Origin: Terriglobia bacterium
Lineage (GTDB): Bacteria > Acidobacteriota > Terriglobia > JAIQFV01
DNA length: 64,000 nucleotides
Direction of reading: 5' to 3'
Assembly (NCBI GenBank): GCA_020073085.1
Contig: JAIQFV010000003.1
Location: forward strand, 1-64,000
Part shown: piece after piece, positions 53,924 through 58,977 of the stretch
Position numbering within the stretch: position 1 is the stretch's first letter
Layout: each line of letters begins with the position of its first letter
Notes under the pieces: model-generated
The model's database searches: none
Seen by the model: only the letters and a program-made list of their open reading frames with translations
Told to the model about the DNA's origin: nothing
Translations under genes and position numbers: made by a program

Positions 53924-54233
53924 GGGGTGGCGTTCGCCTGTTCATTCCGAATGCGCGTTCCCGACAGGCGGGCGAGCCTCCAGGGCTTGCGGGGACTTTT
54001 TCTTCACGTTGGTTGTCCTTCCCCCTGACGTGTGTTTTTCAGCAGAGCGAAGCATTTATCTTTCTCTCGCAAATCACCGTATGTACGCCCCCCCCCCGAG
54101 AATCTGATCTCTTCCTCCCCCCGCTGACACACAACGAGTTGAGATACTTGAATCCCCGCCATCGGCCGCGTATGGGATGGAGAAGGGGATCGTAAGCCTC
54201 TCCCGAGTCCCGGTTTGCCCCGGGAGAAAGGCG

Positions 54234-54308
54234 ATTTTCAAGAGGATTTTCAAGGCGACCCTTTTCAAGAACAATTCCAAGAAGAAATTTCAAGAAAATT
54301 TCAAGAAG
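54234..54308. repeat. Cluster of TTTTCAAGA-type short repeats
   Basis: About six imperfect copies of (A)TTTTCAAGA or TTTCAAGAA stand in tandem just upstream of the Fur-controlled promoter at 54313. They could be a binding site series or a slippage tract. The rest of 53924-54233 shows a C-tract near 54089-54097 but no gene. Confidence 0.55.
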
Positions 54309-54312
54309 AGGC

Positions 54313-54370
54313 TTGACAGCCGGAAAGCCATTGGGTAGTGTTGTATTGAAAATGACATTCATTTTCAATA
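54313..54370 (+). promoter_or_regulatory. Promoter with Fur box
   Basis: TTGACA (54313-54318), a 17-base spacer and TAGTGT (54336-54341) form the promoter. Directly after it is a palindrome with 12-bp arms (TATTGAAAATGA and its complement, spacer CAT) at 54344-54370. Its core, 54348-54366, matches 15 of 19 positions of the classic Fur box. The site covers the expected transcription start, so iron-loaded Fur would block it. The first start codon is at 54401. Confidence 0.8.
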
Positions 54371-54400
54371 TTGACGACACGGCCTTGAGGTGGAGTCCCG

Positions 54401-54853
54401 ATGAAATCTTCCCTGCGGTCTGGCAGAATCCCCCGGCTTCATCTCTGGCTGGGGCTTTCCGCCGGCCTGTATTTCTTGTTTCTCGGCCTGACCGGGATTG
54501 CGCTGAATCATCGAACCGACTGGGGGCTGGAGGAGAAAACCGTCAGCCACCGCTTTTTGCCTTCGCATTATCGCCCGATGGACGAGGGAGAAAGAACACG
54601 GCTGGATATTGTTCTTGCCGATCTCCACTCCGGGCTGCTTTTCGGAAGATATGGCCCCACGGTAAGTGATCTCATCGCCCTGATTTTGATGGCCTCAACT
54701 TTAACCGGGTTTGCCTTGGGGTGGAGACGATCCCGGAAACGAGGGGCATCCTTTCAAACGCCTCGGGCGAAGCCTGTCGCCGACTTGCCTCCAATCCCTG
54801 CGGAGGCCTCAGAGCCTCAACAACTGAGAATCACAACTTCAAACGGAACCTGA
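54401..54853 (+). CDS. Minimal PepSY-TM-like membrane protein
   Basis: 150 residues with two membrane helices: about 13-34 (LHLWLGLSAGLYFLFLGLTGIAL) and about 88-107. The pattern LHxWLGLxxGLYxxxxGLTG, the central DLHSGLLFG and the ending FALGWRRSRKR are those of the PepSY-associated transmembrane family, which occurs in ferric-siderophore and flavin-linked reductases. His residues near the helix ends could ligate haem; this is inference. First gene after the Fur box; the porin follows after 110 bases. Confidence 0.75.
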   Translation: MKSSLRSGRIPRLHLWLGLSAGLYFLFLGLTGIALNHRTDWGLEEKTVSHRFLPSHYRPMDEGERTRLDIVLADLHSGLLFGRYGPTVSDLIALILMASTLTGFALGWRRSRKRGASFQTPRAKPVADLPPIPAEASEPQQLRITTSNGT

Positions 54854-54963
54854 ACAAAAACGACCAGGATCAAATCAGGAATATACGTGAAGGAGCAGCC
54901 CGGGTGTCGATGATGATTCATTTTCTCAGAGCCATCCCGAAGTCTACAGTGGGAGATTCATAT

Positions 54964-56640
54964 ATGAGGTCTCAGTTTTTTCGGAAGCGGTTGTCCTGTC
55001 TCCTGATCCTGTGCTTGGGCGGGGGAGAAGCGGTTGGACAAAGCGCCTATAACGGTTCAGAGGCGGCGAAGCCCGCAAGTGGCACGCTGCTGAAGTCCGA
55101 GCGCGATCAACTTTTGGCGAAAATCTCGGACCTTCAGGCACAGATCGATGCACTCCGGAAGCAGATCGGGATGGAAAGACCGGTTGAGACGGAAACCGCT
55201 GTCCCGCCAATCTCCCCGGATGACTCGGCGAAAGTCCAGGTCCCACGCAAGGAGGTCATGGACTCAAGCTCGCAAACCTCTCCTGGACGTATTCGGCCGG
55301 GACAAATCAGCGTCTTGAAGGACCGTGTCAACATAGGAGGTTACGGCTCGGTCCGATTTGAAGCGAATGATGTGGGCGGTGACTTCTTCGTACCCGGCGG
55401 GTCAGCCAGGGGGTTCACGTTTCGACGTTTTGTGCTGACTACCGATACGCATCTCAGCGACCGGCTTCGCATACACACGGAAACCGAATTTGAGAGACTG
55501 TTGGAACTGGAGATTGAACGGAAGGTCGAAAGGAGTGCGGGCGGACTGCGATTCGAGCAAGGTTTGGAGGGAACCAACGGGGGAGCCATTGAACTTGAGC
55601 AGGCCTGGGGCCAATTCGACTTTTCGAAAAACCACGGAATCCGGTTCGGCGTCGTCTTATCCCCGGTGGGGCGCTATAACATCAACCACGACGACGACTA
55701 TTGGGATCTTCCTCGACGCACGCTGACCGACCGTGATGCTCCCGTGCTGCCGGTGAAGGCCGCATGGAGGGAATTGGGGGCGGGCCTGGTCGGTCATGGC
55801 AACGTGGGGGGGCGCGGTCGGATCGATTATCAAGTCTATTTATTGGGTGGGGCCACTCTGGATTTTGCGATGAATCAGATCAGCCAGACAAGGGGTTCGC
55901 AACCCGCCCGATTGGTGTCGGAGGCTGAGGTGGGGTTGACCTCCGGCGCCTTTGACGGGACGAAGTCCGCTCAGGCCTTGGGCTATCGTCTGGCTTATAG
56001 CCCACGCCTGGGAAGCGAGATCGCCCTTTCGGGATATCATGGAAGATATACCCCGGGCTTTCTCCCGGTCTCTGAAGTACTCCAGGTGATCGGACTGGAT
56101 GGGGACTTCAAACACAAGGGGTTCGAAGTGGAAGGAGAGATGATTGCTTCCGATTTTGGGAATGTCCGCAATGTGCTGGCCGCCTTTGCCGAGCGGGCAT
56201 TTGCCGCGTCTGTAGAGTCCACAGGAAGCGGGGGTCTCGGATCAGAGATCGAATTCAGTCTGGAGGGCCTGGCGCGGAGGCGGTACGGCTTTTGGACCGA
56301 CGTCAAGTATCACTGGCGACCGGAGTTTTTGAGGAAGACGTTCCTCGGTCGAGGGTTTGAGGATCCGGTCCTGATCCCCATTGTCCGATTTGAACGCGTA
56401 TGGCTCAAAGACCTGGTCACTGGGCTTGCATTCGACCAGGGGGCCCTCACCGAGCTTGCTCAGGAGAACCGGAGCCAGGACCGGTTGACGGTTGGGATCA
56501 GTTACCGGCCGGTGCCGTCGTTCGCATTCCAACTCGCCTATGAACACAATCGACGCCGATCAGGATCGATGTTGATTTATCCGGCGGTTCCATTGAATTC
56601 GACAAATGGTTTCCTTTTGGGAATGAGTTTTGGCTTCTAG
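54964..56640 (+). CDS. Outer-membrane porin with N-terminal coiled coil
   Basis: 558 residues. The ATG at 54964 has GGGAGA upstream and opens a signal peptide (to about residue 25, AVGQ). An N-terminal coiled coil follows (KSERDQLLAKISDLQAQIDA), as in trimeric porins. The rest alternates amphipathic strands and ends in Phe (LGMSFGF), the C-terminal mark of outer-membrane barrels. It resembles phosphate-selective or OprB/OprP-type porins. Within a Fur-controlled cluster it may pass iron chelates or reduced iron, which is inference. A longer frame from 54721 overlaps the gene before and is unlikely. Confidence 0.8.
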   Translation: MRSQFFRKRLSCLLILCLGGGEAVGQSAYNGSEAAKPASGTLLKSERDQLLAKISDLQAQIDALRKQIGMERPVETETAVPPISPDDSAKVQVPRKEVMDSSSQTSPGRIRPGQISVLKDRVNIGGYGSVRFEANDVGGDFFVPGGSARGFTFRRFVLTTDTHLSDRLRIHTETEFERLLELEIERKVERSAGGLRFEQGLEGTNGGAIELEQAWGQFDFSKNHGIRFGVVLSPVGRYNINHDDDYWDLPRRTLTDRDAPVLPVKAAWRELGAGLVGHGNVGGRGRIDYQVYLLGGATLDFAMNQISQTRGSQPARLVSEAEVGLTSGAFDGTKSAQALGYRLAYSPRLGSEIALSGYHGRYTPGFLPVSEVLQVIGLDGDFKHKGFEVEGEMIASDFGNVRNVLAAFAERAFAASVESTGSGGLGSEIEFSLEGLARRRYGFWTDVKYHWRPEFLRKTFLGRGFEDPVLIPIVRFERVWLKDLVTGLAFDQGALTELAQENRSQDRLTVGISYRPVPSFAFQLAYEHNRRRSGSMLIYPAVPLNSTNGFLLGMSFGF

Positions 56641-56710
56641 AGGAATGGGGCATTACGTGTGCAGCTTTGCCGCTGCCCCCCGACATTTCGGAAGTGGAAG
56701 GGATTGAGTG

Positions 56711-57262
56711 ATGAAGAAGCAAGTGCTGTGCCTCGCATTGATTTCATTGTGGGTCCGCACGCCGGTGATGATTGCCGAGCAATACCTGACCGAAGCGCAA
56801 GCTTTGAAGATTGCGTTCCCTCAGTCCCAGAGCGTCACCGCGGAGAGCAGAGTGATCTCAGACGAGGACCGCCGGGGAATCAAACAGCGATACGGGATTG
56901 AAGTGCTGAGTTCTTCAGCGAGGATATATTCTGGAAGAAGCGGTTCAAGGATAGACGGGTATGCCGTGATCGCTGACGAGATCGGAAAGAGCGAGCCGAT
57001 CACGTTCATTGTCGTCATGGACCCATTTGGAAGAGTCCAGACCGTAGCCGTCATGGAGTTTCGGGAGACTCGCGGATGGGAGGTAAAGGAGCCCCGTTTT
57101 TTGCGCCAGTTTCATGGCAAGAAATCCACCGATCACCTCCGTGTCAACGATGATGTGGTCAACTTGAGCGGCGCCACTCTTTCGTCGATCGCCGTGGCCA
57201 ACGGTGTCAAGAAGGCCGTCGTGCTGGTCGATTATTTCCTTTTACATTCGGATAGAAAGTAG
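56711..57262 (+). CDS. Exported FMN-binding-domain protein
   Basis: 183 residues. A short hydrophobic N-terminus looks like a signal peptide. The FMN-binding domain has GYAVIADEIGKSEPITFIVVMD and the flavin attachment motif SGATLSS with Thr156. ApbE-type enzymes attach FMN by a phosphoester to this Thr in related proteins (NqrC, RnfG), and an apbE gene follows after 9 bases. In NqrC the motif is DGLSGAT; here Val replaces the Asp, so modification is not certain. It probably carries electrons in the periplasm. Confidence 0.85.
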   Translation: MKKQVLCLALISLWVRTPVMIAEQYLTEAQALKIAFPQSQSVTAESRVISDEDRRGIKQRYGIEVLSSSARIYSGRSGSRIDGYAVIADEIGKSEPITFIVVMDPFGRVQTVAVMEFRETRGWEVKEPRFLRQFHGKKSTDHLRVNDDVVNLSGATLSSIAVANGVKKAVVLVDYFLLHSDRK

Positions 57263-57271
57263 GAGCTCCCC

Positions 57272-58414
57272 TTGAATTCGACATCTCAACACTTCCCCAA
57301 GATTCATCCTGCAATGGGTAAAATGTTTGGGTACTGGCGGCGTTGGGTCCCGATGGCGGTAGTTATGGGGGCCGCATTGGCAGCAATGGGGTTCAGAGAA
57401 TCCGGATCGCAACCACTTCCTCACAAGCAGATGCGTTATGTGATGGGAACCCTGTGCGAAATTACGATTTATGACGAGGATCCAGTACGGGCGGAGCGGG
57501 CCATGAACCAAGCGTTTGAGGAGATGCAACGGGTCGACCGGCTCTTGAGCAACTACGATCCCCACAGCGAGTTGAGCCGGATGAACCGGACGGCTGCCGC
57601 GGGCCCCTTTAAAGCGTCTGTCGAGTTATTCCAATTTGTCACGGCTTGTCAGCGGTTCTACAGGATCACTCAGGGGGCATTTGACCCGACGGTAGGCCCC
57701 CTGGTTCGTGCCTGGGGTTTTTTTGGGCTTCACCCTCATGTCCCCCGGAGGAGTGAAGTGGAAGCCGCCCGTGACAAGGTGGGAATGGGGAAGGTCGAAC
57801 TCGACCAGGTTCATGCCCTGATCAGTTACGGGGTTGAGGGAATGGAGATCGATCCCGGGGGAATAGGCAAAGGCTACGCAGTGGATCGGGCAGTTGGAAC
57901 GCTAAAGCGCGCCGGCATCACTTCCGCTCTGGTCAACGCCGGCAGCAGCTCCCTGTATGCGATCGGGCATCCACCCGGCCAGGCCTCTTGGCGGATCGGG
58001 ATCAAGGACCCCTTTTTTCCAAACCATCCCGCGGCCTTCGTTGCGCTCCTCGACAACTCGCTCTCCACGTCCGGGAGCCTCGAAAAGCGCGTGCAAGAGG
58101 GAAGTCAGACCTTCAGTCACATCTTTGATCCGCGATCAGGGGCGCCGGTGGGGGGAGTTCTCGAGGTGAGCGTCATTGCCCCAACGGCAACCGAATCAGA
58201 CGCATTGACGAAAGCAGCTTTTGTTTTATCTCCCCCAGATGCCTTCGGCCTATTTCAGAAACTGGGCGGGGTCCACGCCCTTCGTTTCGAGCGCAGCGGG
58301 TCCGCCGGATGGCGCCTCCGAATGACTCCCTGGTCACAATCGGAATTCTGCCTGAAAGGCGAAATTCGCCGGACCCATTCCGTTAGACGTGTTGATTTGA
58401 AGCGGGAGAACTGA
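57272..58414 (+). CDS. apbE: FAD:protein FMN transferase ApbE
   Basis: 380 residues, TTG start with AGGAG upstream. Signal-anchor helix at about 25-45. Family motifs: MGTLCEITIYDED, GGIGKGYAVDRAV, the glycine/serine-rich NAGSSSLYAIG, the strand HIFDPRSGAPV and the metal region ATESDALTKAAFVL. It moves FMN from FAD onto Thr of exported proteins. Tight linkage to the FMN-binding gene points to that protein as substrate. Confidence 0.93.
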   Translation: MNSTSQHFPKIHPAMGKMFGYWRRWVPMAVVMGAALAAMGFRESGSQPLPHKQMRYVMGTLCEITIYDEDPVRAERAMNQAFEEMQRVDRLLSNYDPHSELSRMNRTAAAGPFKASVELFQFVTACQRFYRITQGAFDPTVGPLVRAWGFFGLHPHVPRRSEVEAARDKVGMGKVELDQVHALISYGVEGMEIDPGGIGKGYAVDRAVGTLKRAGITSALVNAGSSSLYAIGHPPGQASWRIGIKDPFFPNHPAAFVALLDNSLSTSGSLEKRVQEGSQTFSHIFDPRSGAPVGGVLEVSVIAPTATESDALTKAAFVLSPPDAFGLFQKLGGVHALRFERSGSAGWRLRMTPWSQSEFCLKGEIRRTHSVRRVDLKREN

Positions 58415-58476
58415 TAGATTACGGGTCACAGACCCAGCAGGTCCCGGCAAAGAGAAAGAAGCGTTCAGGTGACCCT

Positions 58477-58977
58477 ATGAACACCGCGCGGGTGTTGGAT
58501 ATTTCGGAAGTAAACAAGGCCCAAGGGACCATCCCTGTCACTGAGGAGAAGCGCGTCTTTGAAGAACACCTCAGAACGGTCGGTCTGAAGCACTCGCACC
58601 AACGGGATGTCATCCTGGATGAGTTCCTGAAGCATCGAACACATTTAAGCGTGGACGATCTTTACCAGATGGCGCGTCAGAGGGACGCTCGGATCGGATT
58701 CAGCACCGTCTTCCGGACCATGAAGCTTCTCAAAGACTGCGGCGTTGCCCGTGAGGTCGTCCTGGCGGACGGAATTTCCCGCTTTGAGCGCAACTACAAG
58801 TATCCACACCACGATCACCTCATCTGCACCTCCTGCAACAAAACCGTGGAGTTTTTTGTCTCTGAGATCGAAGAACTTCAAGAGCAAGTGGCGAGGAAGT
58901 ACCACTTCAAGATGAAGCACCACGTCATGGTGCTGTATGGTCTCTGTCGCGATTGTCAGCGTGCTCTCAAGACCTAG
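58477..58977 (+). CDS. Fur-family transcriptional regulator
   Basis: 166 residues. The winged-helix part has LKHSHQRDVILDEFLKHRTHLSVDDLY and the recognition helix FSTVFRTMKLL. The metal region HHDHLICTSCNKTVEF and the second CxxC (CRDC) supply zinc and regulatory sites. An N-terminal extension of about 20 residues is present. It is the last gene of the cluster that starts with a Fur box, so autoregulation is likely. Fe, Zn or Mn specificity cannot be told from sequence. Confidence 0.9.
   Translation: MNTARVLDISEVNKAQGTIPVTEEKRVFEEHLRTVGLKHSHQRDVILDEFLKHRTHLSVDDLYQMARQRDARIGFSTVFRTMKLLKDCGVAREVVLADGISRFERNYKYPHHDHLICTSCNKTVEFFVSEIEELQEQVARKYHFKMKHHVMVLYGLCRDCQRALKT

Follow-up and report, generated by a model that had tools for sequence, protein, structure and literature searches.

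What function unites a compact membrane protein, a porin, an exported flavoprotein and its flavin transferase that follow a single Fur box and are succeeded by a fur gene? The locus lies in the window, by which we mean the whole 64-kb stretch of DNA analysed here, itself part of a 5.79-Mb draft genome in 68 contigs (G000, the own genome). Our results argue with good confidence for a Fur-controlled module that reduces iron in the periplasm for assimilation.

Organization of the gene cluster

The sequence-only reading had described five same-strand genes following a 27-bp Fur box. All five open reading frames were found where it had put them; Pfam matches above cut-off name four of the five (PepSY_TM, FMN_bind, ApbE and FUR) and the fifth is modelled as a porin. 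The features are as follows.

54313–54341, + strand: putative promoter read from the sequence (TTGACA 54313–54318, 17-bp spacer, TAGTGT 54336–54341)
54344–54370, no strand assigned: Fur box, 27-bp palindrome
54401–54853, + strand: compact PepSY_TM protein, 150 aa (Pfam PF03929, 1.4e-10)
54964–56640, + strand: predicted outer-membrane porin, 558 aa, with signal peptide (AlphaFold model and Foldseek)
56711–57262, + strand: exported FMN-binding (RnfG/NqrC-like) protein (Pfam PF04205, 1.4e-9)
57272–58414, + strand: ApbE FAD:protein FMN transferase, exported or anchored (Pfam PF02424, 7e-76)
58477–58977, + strand: resident fur, Fe-type (Pfam FUR, 7.6e-33; top PDB matches are ferric uptake regulators)

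The palindrome reads TATTGAAAATGA-CAT-TCATTTTCAATA, with both 12-bp arms perfect, and is the sole palindrome in the window with perfect 12-bp arms and a short loop. Its score of 15/19 against the 19-bp Fur consensus was confirmed; 500 mononucleotide shuffles of the surrounding 310 bp gave no sequence that attained it. The box is kept, with a single central base differing, in the same-genus relative G001 (GTDB record JAIQFY010000008.1, a soil ‘Terriglobia bacterium’ MAG), a relationship that places the window in the Acidobacteriota. The Fur palindrome proposed earlier holds. The promoter proposed with it holds in part: the upstream TTGACA is also present in G001 at equal spacing to the box, but the −10 hexamer is poor, and a strict scan found no promoter-like site because TAGTGT is weak. 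The Fur box begins just past the −10 and overlaps the inferred transcription start. Several imperfect TTTCAAGA direct repeats, most of them absent from G001, occupy 54235–54310 immediately 5′ of TTGACA, and a run of ten C residues at 54088–54097, in the intergenic region between rseP and the PepSY_TM gene, is possibly slippage-prone or assembly-sensitive.

A shared operator with iron transporters

No iron transporter gene adjoins the module inside the window, and the strongest evidence for its role is the genome-wide scan for a shared operator, which is independent of gene neighbourhood in the window. Allowing up to three mismatches to the strict palindrome, only four sites were found in the own genome (none in the reversed control): at the module, 36 bp before FeoB, in the intergenic region of the divergently oriented VIT1 and FTR1, and a fourth, doubtful one. 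A box-like site at C6:30120 in G000, ∼680 bp before an aconitase-like gene, was not judged to be real. A second scan, using a slightly looser pattern limited to at most one mismatch, covered all five genomes that pair the module with canonical Fur boxes (G000, G001, G033, G047 and G223) and returned exactly two sites in each, with no site for the reversed pattern in G001, G033, G047 or G223. One of the two is the module promoter in 5/5 genomes; the other precedes FeoB in G000, G001 and G033, and FTR1 in G047 and G223. Judged by sequence, the promoter box is thus both conserved and common to iron-transport genes, consistent with a shared Fur regulon.

Two features of the transporter loci may be recorded here. 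In the own genome, a DtxR/MntR-type metal-binding domain is fused to a FeoA domain after FeoB (contig C14, L085:2078–2725), and two iron-type repressor families may therefore meet at one iron locus. A C-terminal FtrD-like Fe-S domain is present in those FTR1 permeases with which the module has its operator or neighbourhood in common (L159:4293–5540, L160:3054–4382 and L129:6907–8304).

Components of the module

The first protein had been called PepSY-TM; the transmembrane/haem part of that name stands (PF03929), but there is no PepSY domain. Its AlphaFold model, of modest confidence (mean pLDDT 69.7), has two helices of transmembrane length, residues 10–36 and 85–117. Three histidines, His14, His37 and His76 (codons at 54440, 54509 and 54626), are conserved in the alignment, His14 being absent from one sequence only, whose start is uncertain. 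Profile comparison gave a weak match to FoxB (7abw, E 0.0025). The alignment, itself weak, places helix 1 and the His76-containing LHSG motif at either end of FoxB, the motif falling on the ‘IHGGR’ of its C-terminal helix. A Foldseek search with the model returned nothing significant; FoxB came second and fifth, with E values of 4–5. We regard the protein as a putative haem-b carrier of electrons through the inner membrane. Known family members have at least four helices and large periplasmic domains, and so small a protein would need to dimerise.

For the second protein, no family match above the Pfam cut-off and no relative in a comparison of its sequence profile with the PDB were found. The AlphaFold model, of moderate confidence (mean pLDDT 69), is a large β-barrel of about 16–18 strands with an N-terminal coiled coil (residues 42–67), and Foldseek with this model returned classical porins, the best being OprP (2o4v, E 1.9e-10). 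The predicted fold is thus consistent with the outer-membrane porin proposed from the sequence.

The FMN_bind protein carries the [S/T]GA[S/T] flavinylation motif as S153-G154-A155-T156 (Thr156 codon 57176–57178), invariant in six homologues, and an N-terminal signal sequence judged by eye. A contig search with this protein gave no match beyond the same-genus MAG. ApbE aligns with the solved ApbE structures 3pnd and 7esa across the STSGS and SHIFDP motifs. The two are taken as a pair, since homology search found only one FMN_bind protein and a single ApbE match in the genome. In relatives, both are also found fused in one open reading frame (L022:1883–3346, L089:6432–8360 and L091:4956–6599), in which case substrate and flavin transferase would travel as one exported protein.

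Gene orders in relatives and the origin of fur

The core of PepSY_TM, FMN_bind and ApbE is rare: the PepSY profile matches 10 of 399 genomes of the class and the porin profile gives strong matches in 7/399. The five-gene order of the window, PepSY-porin-FMN-ApbE-fur, recurs in G001 and G223. Elsewhere the components are rearranged, as fur-PepSY-porin-FMN::ApbE in G093, PepSY-porin-FMN::ApbE in G069 and porin-FMN::ApbE-PepSY in G047; the relatives are mostly draft MAGs, and some clusters may be incomplete on draft contigs. G051 has fur-porin-FMN-ApbE at a contig end and a TonB receptor-ApbE-PepSY piece on another contig. The orders fur-FecA-FMN-ApbE-PepSY and fur-FecA-ApbE-PepSY are seen in G008 and G030, respectively, with no FMN_bind match found in the latter. 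In G466, from another class, porin-FMN-ApbE-PepSY is divergent from an FTR1/EfeU gene. Porin homologues lie within the same cluster in G001, G033, G047, G051, G093, G223 and G466, and FecA-type TonB receptors, in place of the porin or in addition to it, accompany the module in G008, G030 and G051. ‘FecA-type’ is used loosely: the G008 receptor matches FecA structures at 3e-47 and the G030 receptor was recognised by NCBIfam and Pfam, both falling below the NCBIfam equivalog cut-off for FecA.

The fur gene starts 62 bp after apbE and is probably co-transcribed with the module. That the cluster ends in a regulator of its own, as the sequence-only reading had it, needs qualification. G002, of the same family and lacking the module, has dxr-rseP-fur followed by glnA, which rules out a fur exclusive to the module, and rseP directly precedes this type of fur in several genomes of another family. 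This adjacency in module-less relatives indicates that the terminal fur is the resident one; the module has probably become placed between it and rseP. On the other hand, the module repeatedly adjoins Fur-family genes, and this weakens the view that fur is unrelated to it. The module-adjacent fur of G223 groups with the fur of its own family. In other families, represented by G008, G051, G030 and G093, the regulator beside the module belongs to a separate Fur clade. Recurrent placement beside a Fur-family gene suggests, in this small sample, selection for the pairing.

Each of the four genomes with the second clade has a perfect TTGCAA-N5-TTGCAA repeat near the regulator or the module (loci L023:5253, L024:9635, L089:10789 and L127:4612). 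The repeat is identical to the Streptomyces consensus for the nickel regulator Nur (PMC3919588); a nickel reading was set aside on account of G008, where the sole other perfect copy is just upstream of an FTR1 gene. Two other perfect copies, the second one of G030 (close to a DUF5916 gene) and one within the secY region of G069, appear to be unconnected.

Proposed mechanism and alternatives

Our results suggest how such a module may operate. When iron is ample, Fur-Fe(II) would occupy the box, which covers the inferred start site, and close the operon; scarcity of iron would open it. ApbE would attach FMN covalently to the exported FMN_bind protein at Thr156, and the PepSY_TM protein, probably as a haem-b homodimer, would pass electrons to this FMN from a donor in the inner membrane, which is probably quinol. 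The separate flavoprotein may thereby stand in for the substrate-reducing domain of larger PepSY_TM reductases. Its substrate would be Fe(III), as such or in weak chelates, admitted by the dedicated porin; in relatives, a FecA-type receptor would take the porin's role and let in ferric iron or chelates. The resulting Fe(II) would be imported by FeoB or FTR1, encoded elsewhere in the genome under the same operator.

A more specific version of this scheme is proposed tentatively, with slightly less than even confidence: that the two-helix PepSY_TM homodimer is the entire inner-membrane conduit, feeding a separate covalent flavoprotein, and that two parts are exchanged around this core: the gate in the outer membrane, which is either the porin or a FecA-type receptor, and the regulator together with its operator, either Fur and a Fur box or the second Fur-family clade and a Nur-like box.

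The sequence-only reading had envisaged a Fur-regulated flavin path to the periplasm or beyond, for example for Fe(III) reduction or uptake. Comparative genomics strongly supports periplasmic Fe(III) reduction for uptake, through the operator shared with FeoB and FTR1, the FecA-type receptors and the module divergent from FTR1, but there is no support for electrons passing the outer membrane. Dissimilatory respiration of extracellular Fe(III), with the porin forming part of an electron conduit, is very improbable. A porin together with a periplasmic redox protein does superficially resemble porin-cytochrome conduits; however, among the open reading frames and Pfam matches of the cluster there is neither a multihaem protein nor a redox protein of the outer membrane, a TonB receptor takes the porin's place in relatives, and repression by iron is the opposite of what is needed when abundant iron is respired.

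Fur control taken alone would fit equally well with an iron-sparing redox shuttle, in which, during iron starvation, the flavoprotein would substitute for an iron-rich cytochrome or thioredoxin route in some periplasmic reduction that has nothing to do with iron uptake, and flavin systems may suit iron-poor settings (Méheust et al., PMC8238504). Such a shuttle seems unlikely to us, as it leaves unexplained the linked FTR1, the FecA receptors and the operator common with ferrous transporters, and the cluster is without a terminal reductase. It is also highly unlikely that the metal reduced is another one, either copper, to which the PepSY_TM protein CrpH has been linked (PMC13038864), or nickel, as the Nur-like box of the relatives might imply. 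The Fur box of the window is common to FeoB and FTR1, the TTGCAA box of G008 is found at FTR1 as well, and the receptors in relatives are FecA-type.

Relation to known systems

The arrangement had been thought unfamiliar, a view that does not survive comparison with the literature, in which Fur-repressed PepSY-like flavinylation clusters are already published. Méheust et al. 2021 (PMC8238504) described 3220 such clusters, defined by an ApbE, FMN_bind, DUF2271 or DUF3570 gene with a PF03929 or PF16357 gene within five genes, and proposed a role in iron reduction and assimilation; by its Pfam matches, the cluster in the window is one of this kind. The likeness extends to the combination of ApbE with a periplasmic protein predicted to be flavinylated and a membrane protein of PF03929/PF16357, to regulation by Fur, with repression cited for Shewanella and Caulobacter and a link to iron uptake (PMC8238504), and to the association with TonB receptors and VIT1. 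The Caulobacter cluster CC_3059-3063 is strongly iron/Fur-responsive (PMC3751524). The published clusters differ in that most contain DUF2271 (2833/3220), often with DUF4198 (PMC8238504), whereas the window has an FMN_bind substrate and a dedicated porin. PepSY-like proteins in general have three transmembrane helices (PMC8238504), in contrast to the two modelled here.

The PepSY_TM ferrisiderophore reductases FoxB, FpvG, FsrB, HiuB and VciB, for which periplasmic Fe(III) reduction has been proposed, have transmembrane and histidine elements to which those of the 150-aa protein may be homologous, the alignment with FoxB being weak. FoxB-type reductases, however, are characterised by at least four transmembrane helices and large periplasmic domains (PMC13038864), and the protein described here has neither the two periplasmic PepSY domains, which in FoxB bind the substrate, nor the four helices of that type. 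Since it lacks a PepSY domain, the separate flavoprotein would have to carry out the reduction. P19/FTR1 clusters likewise tie an FMN_bind protein to FTR1 iron uptake (PMC8238504), recalling the FTR1 gene beside the module in G466, but no P19 gene was recognised beside the module, which adds PepSY_TM and a porin. The FMN_bind domain and its flavinylation motif are shared with RnfG/NqrC, yet NqrB/RnfD and the other subunits of an RNF/NQR complex are missing from a neighbourhood made up of PepSY_TM, porin, ApbE, Fur, rseP and glnA.

The novelty lies in how the cluster is put together: FMN_bind takes the place of DUF2271, the porin is a dedicated one, the PepSY_TM protein has two helices and no PepSY domain, and the outer-membrane gate and the regulator are interchangeable. 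No description of the acidobacterial form was found in the literature searched, which largely excluded subscription journals, and close relatives may already appear in the supplementary lists of Méheust et al.

The 150-aa protein would offer a small model of a PepSY-type membrane reductase, and the cluster a case of a module that retains its core while its outer-membrane gate, regulator and operator are swapped. For the Acidobacteriota, which are major soil bacteria, it would represent a flavin-based periplasmic reductase linked to ferrous-iron uptake.
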